This document shows, piece by piece, positions 1-32,672 of a stretch of 33,016 nt of DNA (the stretch's first letter is position 1; each line of letters begins with the position of its first letter). Both the position numbers and the translations under genes were made by a program. The stretch lies in assembly GCA_023512135.1 (NCBI GenBank), contig JAIMAG010000023.1:1-33016 (forward strand), in the 5' to 3' direction. Source of the DNA: Terriglobia bacterium. Lineage in GTDB: Bacteria > Acidobacteriota > Terriglobia > Acidiferrales > UBA7541. Under the pieces are notes generated by a model. That model did no database searches. It was not told the origin of the DNA and worked only from the letters and a program-made list of their open reading frames with translations.

Positions 1-3000
1 CAATCCGGAGTTGGGGTTTAGCCAGAACACGCCGTTTTCGGTGCGGAACACGCCGATCTGCTTCTTGAACTCTTCCATCGTCATGTTCCGCAGCACCGCC
101 GGTTCACCGATGAAGGCACCGGTGGTGATGCGCCCGGAGAACACCGTGAAGGGCGCTCCGCTGCTCCACCGCGTGAAGCCGGTGACGATCCACCCGCCGA
201 TGAACTTGTCCACGATGGGATGCACGTTCGCACCGAGCCACTTGCCCCGGCCGAACGGCAGCGGATACAGGAAGTTCATCGAGAACGAGTGGCGCACATC
301 GAACGCGGCCCGGAAGCGGTCACGCGAACGATTCAGCAACGACCGATACGTCTGGAACTCCTGCTGGCTGGTCAGGAACGTGGTATCGGTCAGCACTTTG
401 CTGAAAGTGTAGTTTGCCTGGAAAGTTAAGCCGCCGGCGAAACGACGGCGCAACTCGAACTCGCCACCGTGGTAGATGGACCAGCTCGAGTTGTCCACCA
501 GAATCGCAGAGTTGGCAAAGGGGTTGGGCACGAAGAAGTTCAGCGGGAAGAACTGCTCGCGGTTCGCGCGATACGTGTTCGACCGCCGAATCGTGTCCAT
601 CATGGACCCGATTTGCCCTTCGCTCAGCAGGGTAATGAACGTGCTGTTGGTGAATCCGCTGGAGAGTGCGAGCCCTTGGAACAGAGCCTCGAAAATCGGC
701 AGCGGAACCTGACCCGGCAGGCCGCGGTTGTCAAACCGCAGGGCGCCGGTGGGGGAGCCGGTGCAGGCAGTCCGGTTGGCCGCACAGATGGTCAGGTTGT
801 TCTGCGCGTTGCGGAACTCTGTCAGCAGGTTCGCCACCTGATTCCCACCGAACGAAAACGGATTGTTCAGCAGGTTAATTTCGTTGTAATCCGTGGAACG
901 ATACATCGCCGAAGCGTGGTTGCCCACGTAGCGGGCTTCAAACGCCCACCGGTTCCACAGCTCCCGTCCGACCGAAAGCGACCACTCCACAACCACCGGC
1001 GTGCGCAGTTTGGGATCGAAGACCCAGAGGTTCGTCGCCGTGTTGTTGATGAAGTTCTGTCGCTGGGAGACCGGGAAGCTGGCCACCGGTGCCGGCGGCA
1101 GGGGAACCGAAGCGGGGTTGAAGACGCCCACCGGTGTTGTGTTGGCTACCACGCTGAACAGACCGGTGTTGCCCGTCCCGACCAGCTGGAACAGCGTGAA
1201 ACCATCCTGCGGATAGTGGATGCTGGCGCCGCCACGGATCGAGGTTTTGCCGTCCGCCCAGGGATCCCAGGCGAATCCCAAGTACGGCGCGAAGTTGTTG
1301 ATGTCGCGCGCGTAGACAGGCTTCCCGTTCCGTGCGCCAGCAAAGTCCAGCAGAACATCATTCATCACCGGTGTGGTCCGCGGGGTGAAAAGGTTGCCCA
1401 CTCCGGCAGGGCCCCACAGGCCACTGATGCCGTCCACGGGCAGCAGAACCAACCCGTTCCGCAGGTCGAACACGCCTTGGAATTCATACCGCACCCCCGC
1501 CGTCAGGGTGAAGTTGCGGAACATCTTCCACTGATCCTGGAAGTAGAACGCCAAGTTGTGCTGGATCGGGTCGATTTCGCGCGGCACGCCCGGCACAAAG
1601 CCCGACGTGGGCGAGGTGTGGTTGAATCCCTGCTGAATCTGGCTCAGTTGACCAACCAGGATGTTGTAGATGTTGCTGGCACGGGTAAGGTCTCCGGAGC
1701 TGATGCCGCCCGGGAAGTCCGAGGCCGTAATCCCGTTCGGGTTGGCTGAGTTCGTTCCGATGAAAACACGGGGAACGACAGTGTTAAAGAAGAACGAGTT
1801 CGCTACAACCTGCTTGTACTCGCCCCCAAACCGGATCCCGTGCGACCCACGGAACCAGGTGAAGTGATCCATCACCTGGCGCACCGGGGTGTTCCGGCCC
1901 TGGGGCAGGTTGCCCTGGGTCAGAGTCGGGTCGGTGACGAGCGGCAGGTCAAGCTGCACTCCGCCGGTTGCCTGATAGGTCTCAAACAGCGCAAATTCAA
2001 CCGGTGCCCGCTGGAAACCCACGCGGACCTCGTTCGTCTTCGTTGGGCCGAAGTTCGCCAGCCAGGCCCAGACGACTACCTGCCGGCGCGACACTTGGGC
2101 TCCTCCGGTGGATTTGGGGAACAGCGGTTCAATCCCGTTCAGCAGGTCCGGAGTGGAGTCGAAGTCAGCTTGGTTGTAGACGAATTCGATCGCATGGTTT
2201 TTGGTGAGCTGGTGGTCCACACGGATCGTGTAGCGCTCCTGCTTGCTCTTGCCCGGCAGGTTAAACGTGAAGCACCGCACGTTGACGCCGTCACCACCGC
2301 AGCCCAGGTCGCCGTTTGGTTCGGGAACCAGGCTGTTATAGAAGTCCATCACGGCGGCGTTCAGGTCTGCCGGGGTGCTGGGACGCGAACCTGTCGGGGT
2401 GTTGATCTGTCCCAAGGTGAGCAGGTTGATCGTTTGCGGAGAGCCACCCGGCGGCGTCCAGGTGAAGAGCCCCTGGCGCGCAGCAGGGCTCAACACGCTG
2501 CGGGTACGGCTGCGGGAAAGCGGTTCGCGGAACAATTCAATGTTCCCGAACACCCAGGTGCGCTCCCGGCCGTCGTAAAGCTTGGGAATAAACACAGGAC
2601 CGCCCGCATTGGCACCGATCCGGTTCTGCAACTGGAACGGTCGCGGAATGCCCTGTGCGTTGTTGAACCAGGTGTTGGCATTCAACGCGTTGGTGCGCTG
2701 GTACCAGAACAGCGAACCGTGAAATTCGTCCGAACCACGCTGCGTACGGATGGAAACCTGGGCTGCGCCGAAGCCACCATCCACGCCTACGCCCGCTGTG
2801 GACACGGCAAACTCACCCACCGCATCCACCGTCGGAGCGCTGATAGCAAAGAATGAGCTGGTCTTGACGAAATTGTCTGCCACGTTGATGCCGTCCTGCG
2901 TGATGTTCGTCGAATTGCCGCGCAGGCCGTGCACAAAGGAATCAGCGATACCCGAGCTGGTAGGGGTCACAATGCCCGGCAGCGTCCGCACCAGGTCCAG

Positions 3001-6319: not shown

Positions 6320-9300
6320 ATGGGCAGATTCCGCTCGGGCTGGTTCCGGCACGTGACGGCGAGCAGGCGAATTGCCTCAGCGCGGCTATGGCCCGCGGCT
6401 GGCCTGCTCGTCGCGTTGCTGTGGGCTGCCGCACCGGCTCTGTTGCAGGAACTGTCCACACAGATTGAATCTTCGAGCAAACCTGTTGCCGGACAGATTG
6501 AACCGGATAATCCCACTGCGCGCGCGGAATGGTTCTATCGCCAGCGCGCCTTCCCCCTGAAGGAAATTCCTCCCGGAGTGCGGCTGCGTGCTTTTGAACA
6601 GTACCGCGAAGTTCTTCAACGTGGCCCCGGGTATCTCTTTTCGGCTGCGCGCTCCGCAGCCCTTGCTCGCGAGTCCTTCGCCACCGCTGTGCCCGGCCTC
6701 TGGGTTCCCATCGGCCCGCAGCCGAGTTCGAGTGGTGATTTTCCTCCGTTCACTTCGGGACGCATCGGCGGCCTCGCGGTGGACCCGCGGGACCAGAACG
6801 TGATTTATGTCGGCGGGGCGCAGGGCGGCGTGTGGAAATCCACCGACGGCGGACAGACCTGGACTGCCTTGACCGATGATCAGCCTTCCCTGGCCATCGG
6901 CTCGATTGCGCTGGCACCTTCCAATCCCGACATCATCTACGTCGGCACGGGCGAGCAGACCTTTTCAGTCAGCAGCTACTACGGTGCGGGCATTCTGAAG
7001 TCCACCGACGCCGGCGCAACCTGGCAGCATCTGCCCGGGCCGTTTGTTGGCCCGTTCACTTCAGGACGTCTGGGCGGTGGTGCCTTTATCGGTTCGCTCG
7101 CCGTGGATCCCACTAACCCTGACATCGTCCTTGCCGGTGTGTTCCAGCCCGGTTCGAGCGCCAATTCCGGCATCCTGCGGTCCACCGATGGCGGGGTGAC
7201 CTGGTCGGTGCGGCTGTCGGGCGCACCGGGCACGGAAGTGGTTTTCGCGACACCGGACGGACAGCTTGCCTTTGCCGCCCTGGGTTCACCGAACGGCAGC
7301 TCATCCAACGGGGTCTACCGTTCGACCGACGGTGGCGTCAGTTGGACCCGAATCAGCGTGACCGGATTCCCGACGACCAATGTCGGCCGCATTGAAATTG
7401 CCGTCGCGCGCAGCAACCCCGACATCCTCTATGCGGGAATTCAGGATTCCAGCAGCTCGAATTTTGGCGCGCTGCTGGGCTTTTTCAAGACCACGAACGC
7501 GCGCAACCCGGACCCGGCCGGAGTCACCTGGACACGGCTCACCACCACGCCAGACTACTGCCGACCGCAGTGCTGGTACGACCATGTCGTGCGGGTACAT
7601 CCTTCCAATCCGAACATCGTCTTTGCCGGTGGCGCGGCGCAGTTCGATTCCCGTGGTCGGCCCACCTTCCCGGTGCGAACGCTGGACGGCGGCAACACCT
7701 GGGAAGGAGTGGGACGCAGCGGGTCCAGCGGGCCATTCATCCACGTGGATACGCACGCGATCGAGTTCGCCAATCCTCCTACGAAGCTGTATGTGGGCAA
7801 CGATGGCGGGGTCTGGAGCACCACGAACATAGAGTCGCCGGTAAGTAGCCTCATCTGGACGAACTTGAACGGGCAAGCAGGCAACCCGGCCAACAGCCTG
7901 GGCCTGGTACAGTTCTATCCGGGCGGCTCCATCCATCCCTCGACGCCGGACATTGCTTTCGGAGGTTCGCAGGACAACAGCACGCAACGGTACACGGGCG
8001 GCGCAGTTTGGGACATCGTCACCTGCGGCGATGGTGCCTGGACAGCATTTGACCCTCAGGTGCCCAGTACCGTGTACACCAACTGCCAGCGGATCGATGT
8101 GCGCCGTTCTTTCCGCAACGGCCTGGACGGCACGTTCGCTTCTGCCGAGGACGGCATCAACCTCGGCGATCGCGTGGCGTTTATCCCGCCGTTCATTCAC
8201 GACCCGAGGATTTCTGGCCGACTCTATTTCGGCACCTTCCGCGTGTGGCGCAGCGACAGCCACGGGGACGGCTGGCAGGCTATCTCCCCGGACCTGACCG
8301 GCGGCAATGGCACGATTTCCACGATTGCCGTGGCCGCTCCGGACAGCAGCGTCATTCTGACCGGCAGCAGTACCGGGCTAATTTTCCGCTCCGCGGACGG
8401 GGGAGCGACATGGACAAACTGCACCACGGCAGACCTTCCGCCGCGGTTCGTCACCCAGGTGGCGGCTCATCCGTTGGACCCGAGCATCCTCTTCGCCACC
8501 TACTCCGGTTTTTCCGGTTTTGTGGACAACCGGGGCCACGTCTTCCGCGCCATCGGCTGCGGCACGGTCTGGACGGACATTAGCGGCAATTTGCCGAATA
8601 TCCCTGTCAATGACATCGTGATCGATACCGACGCCGACCCGACCGGCAATACCCTCTACATCGCGACCGACCTGGGCGTTCTGGGCACGACCAACGGCGG
8701 CATCACCTGGGCGCCGCTGGCACCCGGGTTGCCCAACGTGGCCGTTCTGGCCCTGAAACTGCATCGCAATTCGCGCATCCTGCGCGCGTGGACGCATGGG
8801 CGCAGTGCCTGGGATTTGAAGCTCGACAATTTCACCCCGTCGTTCAACATCCACACGCTCGATCCAGCCACGGCCAACGCTGGCTCTGGGCCGCTGACCC
8901 TGCGCGTGCGCGGCCACGGCTTTGCTGCTGATGCGCGCGTCGTCTTCGACGGTACCGAGCTGCCACCGCCGACCCCGGCAACCAGCAATGAACTGGAAAC
9001 CAGCATCCCCTCGAGCCTGCTCAGCACCGCGCGGGCAGCTTCCGTCACCGTGCGCCAGAACGGCGGCAGTGCGGTCTCCAATGCCTTGACCTTCACCGTG
9101 CTGACCAGCAGCTCGCCGGCCATCAGCTCGATTTCTCCGATCACGGCGCCGCTGAACGGTCCGGCGTTTACACTGACCGTAAACGGCTCGAATTTCACGA
9201 CCAGCTCGGTGGTGCGCTGGAACGGGCAGAACCGCCCGACCACCTTCGTCAGCACAAGCCAGTTGACCGCTCAGATTCCCTCTAGCGACCTGACCGTTGC

Positions 9301-10339
9301 CGGCGTCGCTACCATCCGCGTGTTCGACCCGGCTCCGGGTGCCGGCTCTTCGAATTTGCAAACGCTGATCGTGCAGGCTACGGCGCCATCGAACGACAAT
9401 TTTTCGAATGCCGTCATTGTGAACACCACTCCCTTTAGCCACTCGGTGGCCACGACCGGAGCCGCATCGGCCACCGACGATCCGGCGCCCTCCTGTGTGG
9501 CGGGTCTGGGTGGACTGGCAGAGAACGGCCGGGCCCGGAGTGTCTGGTACCGGTTCACGGCCGCAGCCAACGGCACGGTGAACTTGAATACGCAGGGCAG
9601 CAACTACGACACGATTCTGGCCGTGTTTACCGGTTCCCCCGGGAATTTTTCGGAGGTCGCCTGCAACGACGACGTCGATCCGGGCGTCATTCGCCACTCG
9701 CAACTCAGCTTCAATGCTGTGGCCAACACCGCCTACTCCCTGATGGTGAGCGCGTTCGAAGGGGACGGCGGCAATCTGGCGCTGAATGCGAGCTTCGGTT
9801 TTGCTGCGCCACCTTTCCAGCTGGTGCCGAATCCGGTGCAGCAGACCGTCACCGCCGGTGGCTCGGCCAGCTATACGATTATCGTGGCGCCTGCGCCAGC
9901 CGGTTTCAGCAGCGCAGTCAGTTTGAGCTGCTCGGCACTGCCCACGGGCGCAAGCTGTGCCTTCCAGCCTGCATCGGTCACTCCCGGCACGAACAATACC
10001 AACGTCTCACTGACCCTCAGTACGAGGGCGCGCAGTGCTGTCACGACCGGCTCGGCCTGGAGCGGTTGGCTGTGGAATGCAGCGGGTTTACTCGGTGCGG
10101 CAGTCTGCTTCGCGGGTCTGATGTTGCGGCGAGCGGGCCGGCGTCGGCTGGCCTGGGCGCTGCCTGCTGTGACGTTGCTGGTGACGTTGGCTGCACTGCA
10201 GACAGGTTGCGGCGGTGGCGGCGGCGGGGGCAGTAACCCGCCCTCACAGGGTACTCCGGCAGGAACCTTCACCGTATCGGTGAACGGCACCTCCGGCACC
10301 ATCCAGCAATCAGTCAACATCATCCTGCGCGTGCAGTGA
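6320..10339 (+). CDS. Large exported sortilin/BNR-repeat protein with TIG, PPC-like and membrane-interrupted Ig-like domains
   Basis: This 1339-residue protein has a hydrophobic export segment at about 22-43. A long beta-propeller region follows (about 140-830) with repeated BNR/Asp-box motifs (KSTDGGQTW, RSTDGGVTW, RSADGGATW). Two IPT/TIG domains come next (about 840-930 and 932-1020), then a pre-peptidase C-terminal-like domain (about 1024-1157; NDNFSNAVIV, SVWYRFTAAANGTV). The last domain is Ig-like, but it is split by two membrane segments (about 1252-1269 and 1277-1293) around a basic RRAGRRR loop, then Cys1297 and seven glycines, before it resumes with GTPAGTFTVSVNGTSG. GAGGTG just before the ATG fixes the start. 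BNR propellers of this sortilin type bind proteins or glycans; I infer a membrane-anchored, extracytoplasmic binding protein. No catalytic residues are evident. Confidence 0.88.
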   Translation: MGRFRSGWFRHVTASRRIASARLWPAAGLLVALLWAAAPALLQELSTQIESSSKPVAGQIEPDNPTARAEWFYRQRAFPLKEIPPGVRLRAFEQYREVLQRGPGYLFSAARSAALARESFATAVPGLWVPIGPQPSSSGDFPPFTSGRIGGLAVDPRDQNVIYVGGAQGGVWKSTDGGQTWTALTDDQPSLAIGSIALAPSNPDIIYVGTGEQTFSVSSYYGAGILKSTDAGATWQHLPGPFVGPFTSGRLGGGAFIGSLAVDPTNPDIVLAGVFQPGSSANSGILRSTDGGVTWSVRLSGAPGTEVVFATPDGQLAFAALGSPNGSSSNGVYRSTDGGVSWTRISVTGFPTTNVGRIEIAVARSNPDILYAGIQDSSSSNFGALLGFFKTTNARNPDPAGVTWTRLTTTPDYCRPQCWYDHVVRVHPSNPNIVFAGGAAQFDSRGRPTFPVRTLDGGNTWEGVGRSGSSGPFIHVDTHAIEFANPPTKLYVGNDGGVWSTTNIESPVSSLIWTNLNGQAGNPANSLGLVQFYPGGSIHPSTPDIAFGGSQDNSTQRYTGGAVWDIVTCGDGAWTAFDPQVPSTVYTNCQRIDVRRSFRNGLDGTFASAEDGINLGDRVAFIPPFIHDPRISGRLYFGTFRVWRSDSHGDGWQAISPDLTGGNGTISTIAVAAPDSSVILTGSSTGLIFRSADGGATWTNCTTADLPPRFVTQVAAHPLDPSILFATYSGFSGFVDNRGHVFRAIGCGTVWTDISGNLPNIPVNDIVIDTDADPTGNTLYIATDLGVLGTTNGGITWAPLAPGLPNVAVLALKLHRNSRILRAWTHGRSAWDLKLDNFTPSFNIHTLDPATANAGSGPLTLRVRGHGFAADARVVFDGTELPPPTPATSNELETSIPSSLLSTARAASVTVRQNGGSAVSNALTFTVLTSSSPAISSISPITAPLNGPAFTLTVNGSNFTTSSVVRWNGQNRPTTFVSTSQLTAQIPSSDLTVAGVATIRVFDPAPGAGSSNLQTLIVQATAPSNDNFSNAVIVNTTPFSHSVATTGAASATDDPAPSCVAGLGGLAENGRARSVWYRFTAAANGTVNLNTQGSNYDTILAVFTGSPGNFSEVACNDDVDPGVIRHSQLSFNAVANTAYSLMVSAFEGDGGNLALNASFGFAAPPFQLVPNPVQQTVTAGGSASYTIIVAPAPAGFSSAVSLSCSALPTGASCAFQPASVTPGTNNTNVSLTLSTRARSAVTTGSAWSGWLWNAAGLLGAAVCFAGLMLRRAGRRRLAWALPAVTLLVTLAALQTGCGGGGGGGSNPPSQGTPAGTFTVSVNGTSGTIQQSVNIILRVQ

Positions 10340-14423: not shown

Positions 14424-16250
14424 CTACTTCACCGTGACAGGAATCACGTACTGGCCGGTGATCACCTGGTTCAACTGTGCAGACCATTCCCCAGCCACCG
14501 ACTCGCGCAGCAGCAGCGAGCTGCCCGGAGTGCGTCGCTGGTCGAGGATGCGGATTTGTGAGAGCGGAGCATTCGGCAGCTCTTTGTCTTCCAGCAGCAA
14601 GGTGGGGTTCGGCTGCAGCAGGGTCACGTAGAGCCGGTGGTTGCGCCGCTCCCGGTTCAGCAACGCAATCAACTGTTCCAGCCCGCCCAGCCGGCTCTGC
14701 GGCCCGAGCGAAAAGAAACGGCTCATCCGATTCAACGTTTCCGAATCGCTCACCAGGATGCGGAGCTGACCCTTGGGAGCCTGCGGCGGAATGGTGATGG
14801 GAATTTCGCGGATGAAGGGAGCGCCGCGGTAGGGCTTCAGCAGGACTTTTACGCGAATCTCTTCGCCCGGGCTGACTTCGCTCTTTTCGCTCCAGGCACT
14901 GTCGATCACCGCCCAGCGCCGCTCCGGAACGGCTTCCACACGCAACCGGATGCTGTTGATGCGTGCCGCTTCGTAGGAGTTGGTGAAGATGCGCGTAAAA
15001 ATCGTCTGCACGCTGTTCACAATGAACAGCGCATCGGGCAGCGGCAGATCCGTGGGGGCGAACATGTTTTCCAGGTTGACGGGCGTGTGTCCATCCACGG
15101 CAATCTCGCCGGTCAGGCGAAACGTTTGCCCCTCCCCGTAGAGCGGGTTGCCGAGCAACCCGTTCAGAGTGGCCAGGCCGACCAGCAGCGGCGTCAGCTT
15201 GGCGTGTTCGACCAGTTCGAAGCGGTACTGCTGCCGTCCGGCAGGCGTTACGCTTTCGAGCTCCATCGGGATCAGGCGCGGTGGCGGGCCCAGCCGACCG
15301 ATCACGCCGGTCAGACGGTCATCGGTAATCGAGCCGATCACACCACCGGCATTGACGATCTTCGTGGAAGACATCGCCGAAGCCAGCGTCGTGACCACGC
15401 GCCCGCGCGCCATCGGAGCGACCAGCTCACCGTAGCCCAGCACTGGGTGTCCGCAGAGCAGCAGGCGATCGCCGAAAATCGCGCTCACCGTGCAACTGGC
15501 CTGTACGGAAAGATCGCCCTGCATCAGCACCAGGCTGGCCATATCGCCCGGCTGCAGCAGGGCGTCGTCCGCTCGTGCCGCCGCTGTGCCTCCGGGAACC
15601 GCAACCCATCCAAAAGCCGCAAATTCGCTGGCAAACCGGGACAGCACCGCAGGATGAAAGCCGGAAAAAACCAGTGGAGTTTCGATCGGAGCCAGAAACG
15701 CGCCTTCCCCCAGCCCGAGCTGTTGTGCAAATTCTCCCGGAATCGGATAACCGGCGGCGCGAAAAGCTTCATTCAGTCCCGCCAGGCGGTTCCGGTCTGC
15801 GCCGCTGACCGGCAATTTCAGCATGTTTTCAATGGGCGTTACCCCTGCCAGCGGTTCTTTGGCGAACACACCGAAGCGCAGGGACAGCGCGCCGGCCAGT
15901 TTGCCTTCGAGGTACACCGGGCTCCCGCTCATGCCACCGGCTACTCCGGTGTGCTCCACCCGCGGACCCCGCAACCGCACCAGGATGATGTCTTGCTTCG
16001 GGCCCAGCAGATTCGGCAGCACGCCGACGACTTCCAGTTCGATGCGCTCGATCCGGTCACCCTCGAAAATGGTTTGCGCGTAGCCGGTCATCCCGGGCTG
16101 AATTTTTTCGAGCGGGAAAATTGCTGGCGGCTCGCTCCGCACCGGCGGAGACTGGGCTTGCAGCGGACCGAGGATGGATGCGAGCAGACTCCCACTGGCC
16201 AGCGCTGCAGCCAGGCAGTAGGCGCGGACTCTTGCTGGGCTGGGAAGCAT
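14424..16250 (-). CDS. SpoIVB-type S55 peptidase-domain protein, exported
   Basis: The 608-residue protein has a signal peptide (about 8-32, ending GPLQAQ). The following region matches the SpoIVB peptidase S55 domain: FPLEKIQPGMTGYAQTIFEG at the start, then GVAGGMSGSPVYLEGKLAGA with the nucleophilic serine in GMSGSP (residues 106-111) and a candidate catalytic histidine just before it (His100 in RVEH). In Bacillus SpoIVB this serine peptidase triggers sigma-K processing. Here there is no sign of sporulation, and the long C-terminal beta-rich part (about 300-608) is unlike SpoIVB. I infer a periplasmic peptidase or autoprocessing protein acting with the downstream beta-propeller protein. The start has no good ribosome site, and TATCAT lies 8 nt upstream, so the mRNA may be leaderless. 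Confidence 0.82.
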   Translation of the reverse strand: MLPSPARVRAYCLAAALASGSLLASILGPLQAQSPPVRSEPPAIFPLEKIQPGMTGYAQTIFEGDRIERIELEVVGVLPNLLGPKQDIILVRLRGPRVEHTGVAGGMSGSPVYLEGKLAGALSLRFGVFAKEPLAGVTPIENMLKLPVSGADRNRLAGLNEAFRAAGYPIPGEFAQQLGLGEGAFLAPIETPLVFSGFHPAVLSRFASEFAAFGWVAVPGGTAAARADDALLQPGDMASLVLMQGDLSVQASCTVSAIFGDRLLLCGHPVLGYGELVAPMARGRVVTTLASAMSSTKIVNAGGVIGSITDDRLTGVIGRLGPPPRLIPMELESVTPAGRQQYRFELVEHAKLTPLLVGLATLNGLLGNPLYGEGQTFRLTGEIAVDGHTPVNLENMFAPTDLPLPDALFIVNSVQTIFTRIFTNSYEAARINSIRLRVEAVPERRWAVIDSAWSEKSEVSPGEEIRVKVLLKPYRGAPFIREIPITIPPQAPKGQLRILVSDSETLNRMSRFFSLGPQSRLGGLEQLIALLNRERRNHRLYVTLLQPNPTLLLEDKELPNAPLSQIRILDQRRTPGSSLLLRESVAGEWSAQLNQVITGQYVIPVTVK

Positions 16251-30457: not shown

Positions 30458-30486
30458 TTGACCGGCGGCCAATGGACTAGAATAAT
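30458..30486 (+). promoter_or_regulatory. Promoter of the shc-hpnH operon
   Basis: TTGACC (30458-30463) and AATAAT (30481-30486) are separated by exactly 17 nt, each with five of six consensus bases. Transcription would start near 30493. A second TTGACC lies 26 nt upstream (30432-30437). Confidence 0.55.
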
Positions 30487-30492
30487 CGCTTT

Positions 30493-30650
30493 GCAGGGCT
30501 TATCCTTCTGAACCTGGGGGCAGATGGACAGGTTGACGAACGCTCACCAGTCCGGCGCGCCTGCCTGCAAATTCCCCCGTCACAGAATGCTTCGTGCAGC
30601 GTTTTGCTGTGCGGTGAGTTGCGCGCGGTGAAGGAGACAGAAAGCAGCCA
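30493..30650 (+). other. Long 5' leader of shc
   Basis: If the promoter call is right, shc has a leader of about 158 nt, unlike most other genes here. It contains AAGGAG 14 nt before the ATG, farther than usual. I recognise no riboswitch class in it, and the only hairpins visible are short. Confidence 0.35.
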
Positions 30651-32672
30651 ATGGCACACGGAACCCAGATCGGATTCGAGCTTCCAACCGAGCCGGCACA
30701 GTTCGAGGCTCGACTGAAAGCGGCGATCGAACGGGGTGTCGAGCACCTGCTCGCCTTGCAAACTCCGGAAGGATACTGGCACGCCGAACTGGAAGCGGAC
30801 ACCACACTGGAATCGGACTACATTTTTTATCTCCATCTGTTGGGCAAGGCCGACCCGGAGCGCGTGGCCAAGCTGGCCAATTACGTCCGCCGGCGCCAGT
30901 TGCCCGACGGGGGCTGGAACATCTACTACGGCGGGCCGGCCGAGGTGAACGCCACCGTCAAAGCCTATGTCGCGTTGCGGCTGGCCGGCGATGCAGCCGA
31001 AGCGCCGCACATGCAACGCGCCGCCGAACGAGTCCGCGCCCTGGGTGGGTTGGAGCGCACGAATTCTTTCACCCGCTTCTATCTGGCCATGGCCGGAGCC
31101 ATTGAGTGGGAAAAGGTTCCGGCCATTCCCCCCGAGCTGATGCTGGCACCGGACTGGTTCTTCTTGAACATCTACGAGATGTCTTCCTGGACGCGGGCCA
31201 TCGTCGTGCCGATGATGATTCTGTATGCGCAGAAGCCCTCCTGGAGGCTGCCGGCCGGCGTTCGTGTGGACGAGCTGTATCGCGATCCAGCGCGGCAGAT
31301 CCCGTCGTTTGCCTGGGATCGCGAGCTGTTCACCTGGCGGAACCTGTTCCTGGCGGCCGACCGCGTCTTCAAGCTCTATGAACGCCTGCCCTGGAAGCCG
31401 TTGCGTCGCCGTGCCCTGCGTGCTGCCGAGCGCTGGATGTTCGAGCATCTGGAACGCAGCGACGGATTGGGTGCGATCTATCCGGCCATGATGAATTCCA
31501 TCTTCGCACTGCTCGCGCTGGGCTACGGTGCCGATGACCCGCTCACGGCCCGCGAAGTGCGGCAACTGGCCCGGTTTGAAATCGAAGAGGACGATACGAT
31601 TCGCGTGCAGCCCTGCCTGTCGCCGGTCTGGGATACCTGCATCGCCATGGTGGCTCTCGAAGAAGCCGGGCTGCCGCCAGACCACCCCGCGCTGGTCCGG
31701 GCTGCTGGCTGGCTGCTCGACCGGCAGATTCTCGGCCCGGGTGACTGGCAGAAGAAGTGCGACGGGCGACCGGGCGGGTGGGCGTTCGAGTTCCGCAACG
31801 ATTTCTACCCCGACGTGGACGACACCGCATTCGTCCTCATGGCTCTGCAACGGGTGGACTACCCCGACCGCAGCCGGTTCGAGCAGGCCATCCGCCGCGG
31901 CATTGAGTGGCTGCTCAGCATGCAGAACCGCGACGGCGGCTGGGCTGCGTTCGACAAAAATAACGATCGCTGGGTGCTCACCCAGGTGCCCTTTGCTGAC
32001 CACAACGCCATGATCGATCCTTCAACCGCTGATGTCACGGCGCGGGCCCTTGAGTGTCTGGGCCGTTATGGCTGGCCGGCGGAGCATCCGGTGATCCAGC
32101 GCGCGGTTTCCTTCCTGCGCCGCGACCAGAACTCGGATGGCTCCTGGTACGGGCGCTGGGGCGTCAATTACCTCTACGGCACCGGCGGTGTGCTGCGCGC
32201 ACTCGAGCCCCTGGGACTGGCCGCGCGCGATTTCGCCCGCCGGGCAGTGGAATGGTTGCGCGGCGTCCAGAATCCAGACGGCGGCTTCGGTGAATCGATT
32301 GCCTCCTACGACGATCCGTCGCGCAAAGGGCAGGGCACCAGCACTCCGTCGCAAACTGCTTGGGCCTTGATCGGTCTGCTGGCGGCCGCCGCGCCGGAGC
32401 CGAATGCGCGTTGCAGCGACCCGGCGGTCGTTCGCGCCATCGAATATTTGTTGGCCACGCAGAAGCCGGATGGCTCCTGGGAGGAGGCCGAATTCACGGG
32501 CACAGGATTCCCCCGCGTGTTCTATCTGAAATATCACCTCTATCGGAATTACTTCCCGCTGTATGCGCTGGCGCGCTATCGCAATCTGCTTAGCGGCGCA
32601 GAGCCGTTCTGTGCCGTGAAGCTGGGGCCGGATGCCCGGACTCCGGGTGGGCCAAGGGAGGCCGGACAGTGA
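30651..32672 (+). CDS. shc: Squalene-hopene cyclase
   Basis: The 673-residue protein is a squalene-hopene cyclase, which folds squalene into hopene/hopanol at the membrane. The acid motif DXDD is present as DVDD (residues 388-391). Several QW-type repeats are visible (LQTPEGYWHAELE, RQLPDGGWNIYYGG, MQNRDGGWAAFDK, QNSDGSWYGRWGVNYLYGTG, VQNPDGGFGESIASY, QKPDGSWEEAEFTGTGFP). Length is normal for the family (about 630-720). The signature GTGFPRVFYLKYHLYRNYFP is typical of the bacterial enzyme. The stop overlaps the hpnH start by 4 nt (GTGA), which makes a hopanoid operon with translational coupling. Upstream lipid A genes are on the same strand, but shc has its own promoter. Confidence 0.97.
   Translation: MAHGTQIGFELPTEPAQFEARLKAAIERGVEHLLALQTPEGYWHAELEADTTLESDYIFYLHLLGKADPERVAKLANYVRRRQLPDGGWNIYYGGPAEVNATVKAYVALRLAGDAAEAPHMQRAAERVRALGGLERTNSFTRFYLAMAGAIEWEKVPAIPPELMLAPDWFFLNIYEMSSWTRAIVVPMMILYAQKPSWRLPAGVRVDELYRDPARQIPSFAWDRELFTWRNLFLAADRVFKLYERLPWKPLRRRALRAAERWMFEHLERSDGLGAIYPAMMNSIFALLALGYGADDPLTAREVRQLARFEIEEDDTIRVQPCLSPVWDTCIAMVALEEAGLPPDHPALVRAAGWLLDRQILGPGDWQKKCDGRPGGWAFEFRNDFYPDVDDTAFVLMALQRVDYPDRSRFEQAIRRGIEWLLSMQNRDGGWAAFDKNNDRWVLTQVPFADHNAMIDPSTADVTARALECLGRYGWPAEHPVIQRAVSFLRRDQNSDGSWYGRWGVNYLYGTGGVLRALEPLGLAARDFARRAVEWLRGVQNPDGGFGESIASYDDPSRKGQGTSTPSQTAWALIGLLAAAAPEPNARCSDPAVVRAIEYLLATQKPDGSWEEAEFTGTGFPRVFYLKYHLYRNYFPLYALARYRNLLSGAEPFCAVKLGPDARTPGGPREAGQ

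Follow-up and report, generated by a model that had tools for sequence, protein, structure and literature searches.

What a large exported protein would do with an Ig-like domain that is interrupted by two membrane helices is the question raised by an ORF in the window analysed here, which is the whole 33,016-nucleotide stretch of DNA from a Terriglobia bacterium. As read from the translation of 6320-10339 (+), which encodes 1339 aa, an Ig-like domain takes up the final 175 residues and is broken by a first helix (TM1), the loop RRAGRRR, a second helix (TM2) and Cys1297-Gly7, in the order ...LSTRARSAVTTGSAWSG-[LWNAAGLLGAAVCFAGLML]-RRAGRRR-[LAWALPAVTLLVTLAALQT]-G-C1297-GGGGGGG-SNPPSQ-GTPAGTFTVSVNGTSG...ILRVQ (stop). 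The 19-residue hydropathy means for TM1 and TM2 are 1.78 and 1.69, and the sole other peak in the protein is the N-terminal export signal. By hydropathy and sequence, the h-region of TM2 comprises 20 uncharged residues after RRAGRRR, and the C-terminus lies about 42-43 residues past Cys1297. An earlier note, made from the letters alone, had described such a split domain at 10073-10336; translation, hydropathy and the family match given below confirm the feature, but the Ig-like domain really starts at about 9809 (Table 1). Elsewhere in the window, the ORFs at 469-1746 (+), 1840-2853 (+) and 30480-32003 (-) have no Pfam match at E 0.001, and a 608-aa ORF at 14427-16250 (-) has a weak SpoIVB peptidase S55 match, below the cut-off.

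Table 1. Features of the protein and of its C-terminal tail, in window positions
Feature	Positions	Strand	Basis
ORF, 1339 aa: exported beta-propeller (BNR/Sortilin-Vps10) + TIG + PPC + split Ig tail	6320..10339	+	translation, hydropathy, Pfam, NCBIfam
Probable N-terminal export signal, hydrophobic core, residues 23-42 after RRIASAR	6386..6445	+	hydropathy, sequence
TIG / 'choice-of-anchor Z' repeat, best copy, residues 932-1017	9113..9370	+	Pfam PF01833; NCBIfam NF058597 144.8 bits
PPC-like domain, weak, residues 1075-1145	9542..9754	+	Pfam PF04151 E 4e-4, below cut-off
Ig-like domain first half, strands A-E, residues 1164-1239	9809..10036	+	AlphaFold2 pLDDT 96-98; VIA alignment
TM1 helix, about residues 1247-1271, predicted N-out, stop-transfer	10058..10132	+	hydropathy; AlphaFold2 helix H93-117
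Basic loop RRAGRRR, residues 1270-1276, predicted cytoplasmic	10127..10147	+	sequence; K/R 527 vs D/E 9 in 118 tails
TM2, lipoprotein-signal-like h-region + lipobox -4 to -1 (LQTG), residues 1277-1296	10148..10207	+	hydropathy, AlphaFold2, 118-tail comparison
Cys1297, invariant lipobox cysteine	10208..10210	+	118/118 tails (Cys used in finding them)
Gly7-SNPPSQ flexible linker, residues 1298-1310	10211..10249	+	sequence; AlphaFold2 pLDDT <55 around here
Ig-like domain second half, strands F + G, residues 1311-1339	10250..10336	+	AlphaFold2 pLDDT 97-98; T158, G161, Y163, V184 (tail numbering) conserved

The tail is a member of a family already named in NCBIfam and apparently unpublished. The model NF058595.1 (invert_tail, lipo-invert putative C-terminal anchoring domain; June 2026 release) matches it with 80.2 bits (cut-off 37, E 1.4e-22, model 2-113/113), and with 86.8 bits in the search of the organism's own genome; the match runs to the final residue, 1339, of a protein with an N-terminal hydrophobic signal, which places it C-terminally on an exported protein. 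The remark in the earlier note that such tails lack a named function no longer holds, as NCBIfam names this one as a putative C-terminal anchor. A literature search found no paper on NF058595 or lipo-invert or on its working, and a search on internal lipoboxes gave nothing useful. The name of the model suggests the same idea as that proposed below, an inverted lipoprotein anchor; new here are the split Ig fold, the cases with inserted domains and the reading in which the tail is cut and then clamped.

Genomes with matches above the NF058595 cut-off make up 184 of the 299 sampled genomes of the same class, in 56 of 106 genera and often with ten or more copies, and 36 of the 297 genomes of a phylum-wide sample, mostly of the same class; another class contributes at least two genomes with real tails (G216, G272). 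A non-exhaustive scan of all 84,980 species with one peptide pattern, taken from a six-row alignment, returned 31 loci, all titled Acidobacteria or subgroups. The tail is not confined to one protein, and the objection that the earlier note had named, a tail restricted to this protein, does not apply. The plasmid collection gave no match, and no relative was found among viral contigs. The cargo varies widely and includes beta-propellers, subtilisin-like proteases and repeat proteins. Chance is excluded because of the curated NF058595 match together with the C-terminal recurrence on diverse proteins across the class.

The organism's own genome has only one intact tail. It also has a half-tail (L002 1525-1700 (-), C44:225422-225586; LLIAIGLFQLAC...GTPPGTYTVTVTASSGSLQRTTNVTLIVR), which lies directly behind the stop of another ORF, at a T6 tract, and is either what a frameshift or decay has left of a tail or a very small F-G piece that stands alone and is lipidated. 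In two further loci (L054 and L164, near 3096 and 1509, respectively), the G strand is shortened and the protein ends in ...TRSTC before the stop, possibly by a frameshift.

The two halves are predicted to form one Ig-like domain. AlphaFold2, run on the tail as one uncut chain with an alignment of 29 natural tails, gives an overall pLDDT of 95-98 over the Ig-like part, with one complete bacterial Ig-like sandwich built from both halves and with helices of lower confidence at model residues 93-117 and 120-139 between them. Using VIA-align, the uninterrupted Ig-like domain of the Micromonospora viridifaciens sialidase (PDB 1eut, 2ber; chain residues 404-502) fits model residues 10-185 over 98 residues at 1.9 A (Z 12.4); the fold is the same over both halves, but the sialidase chain is continuous and has no hairpin. 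In the natural tail, Pfam DUF5980 picks up the right half alone (E 0.048, 67-94/97), and it matches at near full length when the hairpin is excised (E 5e-5, 12-94/97, just below the cut-off). Additionally, 19 uninterrupted copies of the tail's Ig-like domain are present upstream in 12 of the tail proteins. With our own profile, the spliced window sequence scores 107.7 bits against 75.5 and 34.1 bits for the halves, and as the spliced score is no higher than their sum, nothing is gained over the evidence of the 19 intact copies. From the model, the structural alignment, the spliced DUF5980 match and the intact upstream copies, the domain is read as a normal Ig-like one apart from the hairpin, which occupies its E-F loop, and the structure prediction thereby agrees with the suggestion of the earlier note that the fold is completed across the hairpin.

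In three of the tails, whole domains separate the Cys from strands F and G. These include an Fn3 domain (Pfam E 2e-7) in L049 (311-1126), one Ig-like unit in L047 (2281-3099) and several Ig-like units in L052 (922-3150), which extend the distance from the Cys to the end to 141, 134 and 606 residues, respectively, from 33-54 otherwise. All three retain a recognisable GTPAGTYT...V F-G pair at the extreme C-terminus. In L049, the only one of the three that was modelled, the Ig fold closes across both the hairpin and the Fn3 domain (4-272; 94 residues, 2.4 A, Z 10.6). Since L047 is related to L052, the insertions count as about two independent events. These tails argue that the F-G pair is kept for completing the A-E half and not through mere adjacency to the linker.

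The selection for tails was passed by 119 of 121 sequences, and both failures are short fragments, one truncated by a contig end and the other a 50-residue piece without the hairpin and the Cys. Among the 118 distinct tails compared, the Cys is present in every one, an invariance that is partly built in because the Cys was used in finding them. The residue at -1, which played no part in the selection, is G/A/S in 118 of 118 (G 78, A 29, S 11) against a background of 32% for these residues at positions -12 to -2 of the same tails. As a control of geometry only, 13 N-terminal hydrophobic-then-Cys stretches from 400 kb of one genome, which were meant as N-terminal lipoproteins and are mostly false positives, have G/A/S at -1 in 5 cases. 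The presence of G, A or S directly before the Cys is the rule for LspA sites. A charged residue at -12 to -1 is found in a single tail. Because the loop is rich in K/R (Table 1), the predicted topology has the N-terminal part outside, the loop inside and the Cys outside.

A PROSITE-like lipobox core is matched by 91 of the 118 tails and the strict form [LVI][ASTVI][GAS]C by 39. The window's lipobox, LQTGC, has the G-C pair and follows a basic n-region and an uncharged h-region, as in substrates of Lgt and LspA, but it has Q at -3, outside the usual lipobox, in place of the hydrophobic residue of the classic one; L is the commonest residue at -3 across the tails, and Q occurs in six. The residues after the Cys are G and S, and long poly-Gly is not general, the Gly run having a median of 2 and reaching 7 in the window's protein alone. 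A likely orthologous tail in the same genus (L131 of G529, at the end of contig C45) has about 16 Gly after the Cys, and its lipobox, SSQLAC, is as imperfect as the window's, with Q at -3. TM1 has no conserved point in the tail alignment comparable to the lipobox, and no protease-like motif was found there; a near-invariant Pro ahead of TM1 lies in a gap-rich part of the alignment and is not relied on. The conservation profile reads as that of a lipoprotein signal peptide set within a protein, and the -1 rule together with the basic loop makes TM2 and the Cys look like an internal type II (lipoprotein) signal, which strengthens the earlier impression that the Cys recalls a lipobox.

With the type II lipoprotein signals handled by Lgt and LspA, the tail shares the basic n-region, the hydrophobic h-region, G/A/S-Cys and the G/S-rich linker that follows; however, the window's signal is internal, behind a stop-transfer helix and near the C-terminus, and has Q at -3. 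The enzymes for such processing are encoded in the same genome (2.8 Mb), with two LspA and two Lgt matches over the cut-off, and LspA was found in all 12 tail genomes checked. One LspA and one Lgt gene are adjacent (C34:70124-71455), and the second copies are on other contigs (C29:3230-3649 and C49:40309-41019).

The resemblance of the poly-Gly to GlyGly-CTERM tails, which the earlier note had raised, does not hold. A Gly-rich stretch, a helix and a basic cluster are all present in the window's tail. However, in GlyGly-CTERM the order is the Gly-rich motif, the helix and the basic C-terminal end, and the partner enzyme is rhombosortase, whereas the window's Gly run comes after TM2 with 35 residues beyond it and its poly-Gly is not conserved. 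The GlyGly-CTERM model gives no match at E up to 10, and the rhombosortase model TIGR03902 stays below its cut-off in all of the 12 tail-bearing genomes searched, the organism's own included. In MYXO-CTERM, an invariant Cys is proposed to be lipidated and the exported proteins are lipid-anchored C-terminally (PMC11980579). The window's tail shares an invariant Cys with a proposed lipid, a helix with an Arg cluster and a proposed C-terminal lipid anchoring. In MYXO-CTERM, the Cys precedes the helix, the Arg cluster forms the C-terminal end and there is no defined lipobox (PMC11980579), whereas the window's Cys follows TM2 in an LspA-type site with about 42 residues beyond. Identity with MYXO-CTERM is rejected, as the Cys order is opposite and its model gives no match at E up to 10.

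Here it is proposed, with slightly more confidence than doubt, that the tail is a C-terminal lipid-anchoring module consisting of an internal lipoprotein signal, a probable cut and a split-Ig clamp. The module may have originated when a hairpin of two helices was inserted between strands E and F of an ordinary bacterial Ig-like domain. Judging from its sequence, the protein would be exported by its N-terminal signal, after which TM1 would stop transfer or reset the topology, leaving the RR-rich loop in the cytoplasm, and TM2 would re-enter as an internal lipoprotein-type signal with Cys1297 in the periplasm, as the positive-inside pattern suggests. Lgt would then lipidate the Cys and LspA would probably cut just before it; for Cys1297 we infer both steps from the lipobox Cys, which is invariant, and from the strict requirement for G/A/S at -1. 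In the predicted structure, strands A-E, which would belong to the long chain, and strands F-G, which would belong to the short lipidated one, pack into a single Ig fold, which for that reason would clamp both chains after the cut, much like the GAIN domains of cleaved adhesion GPCRs, and the large protein would be tethered through a lipid at its C-terminal end. A more specific picture is put forward tentatively, at a little under an even chance: the chain would be cut by the lipoprotein pathway halfway through an Ig-like domain, a pair of lipidated beta-strands would anchor the rest of the protein non-covalently, and some lipidated chains would carry whole extra domains. The hairpin may remain in the inner membrane once LspA has acted, and would then go on holding the long chain there, so that surface display is not accounted for by the lipid alone. 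Alternatively, a further cleavage at TM1 may release the complex towards the outer membrane; such a step would be required for placement in the outer membrane or at the surface, but no signature of it was found at TM1.

The anchor may also be used uncut, with the two helices holding the protein in the inner membrane, the Ig-like domain closing outside and the Cys perhaps lipidated in an intact chain. A two-helix hairpin suffices to anchor a protein, and the Ig fold is complete only with both halves together. The Q at -3 in the window is a poor lipobox residue, and with the strict lipobox fitting only a minority of the tails, it counts against the action of LspA. However, a plain hairpin needs no invariant Cys and gives no reason for following the LspA-site rule at -1 in every tail, and we regard the uncut anchor as rather unlikely. 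An insertion accident, or a functionless pseudogene tail, could be suspected from the truncated half-tail in the same genome; this is scarcely credible for an architecture common to so many genomes of the class, with many copies each and a conserved lipobox, and the idea of a functionless tail is refuted by that conservation.

Cleavage on the TM1 side of a sorting tag by a dedicated protease (rhombosortase, a myxosortase-like enzyme or another rhomboid), with the Cys and Gly as part of the recognition signal, would suit the layout of TM1 followed by an Arg cluster, as in GlyGly-CTERM, MYXO-CTERM and PEP-CTERM tails, the higher Gly + Pro content of TM1 (17.2% vs 9.5% in TM2) and the four rhomboids of the organism's own genome. 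The lack of matches to the GlyGly-CTERM and MYXO-CTERM models at E up to 10, and of rhombosortase-model matches over the cut-off in the 12 genomes searched, speaks against it, as does the conserved point, which is the lipobox and not a site in TM1; a dedicated enzyme is also less likely for a genome with a single intact tail, and this explanation is judged improbable. A release or tension device, in which LspA cuts, the hairpin keeps the long chain and the F-G clamp is pulled apart for release or signalling, draws on the same evidence of a cut within a beta-sandwich and on the GAIN domains of adhesion GPCRs, which act likewise, the terminal beta-strand on the membrane-attached chain staying bound after the cut (PMC13197933). 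The likeness of the clamp is one of working, a beta-rich domain with its terminal strand on a separate membrane-attached chain, with no claim of homology; GAIN domains cut themselves autocatalytically, and what sits in the membrane there is a 7TM receptor. However, no signalling partner was seen beside the gene, and the cargo types resemble ordinary secreted or surface proteins, which makes such a device very improbable.

The mechanism proposed for this family, lipidation, a cut before the Cys and clamping by the split Ig fold, is unusual, and the tails with inserted domains make it testable. If it is true, large exported proteins would be anchored by the general lipoprotein enzymes at the C-terminus instead of the N-terminus, with no dedicated sortase involved, and every tail-bearing genome is predicted to yield a lipidated fragment starting from the invariant Cys. 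A natural tool for split-Ig pairing would also be on offer. Furthermore, the tethering of many proteins of Terriglobia and Acidobacteriota would be explained.
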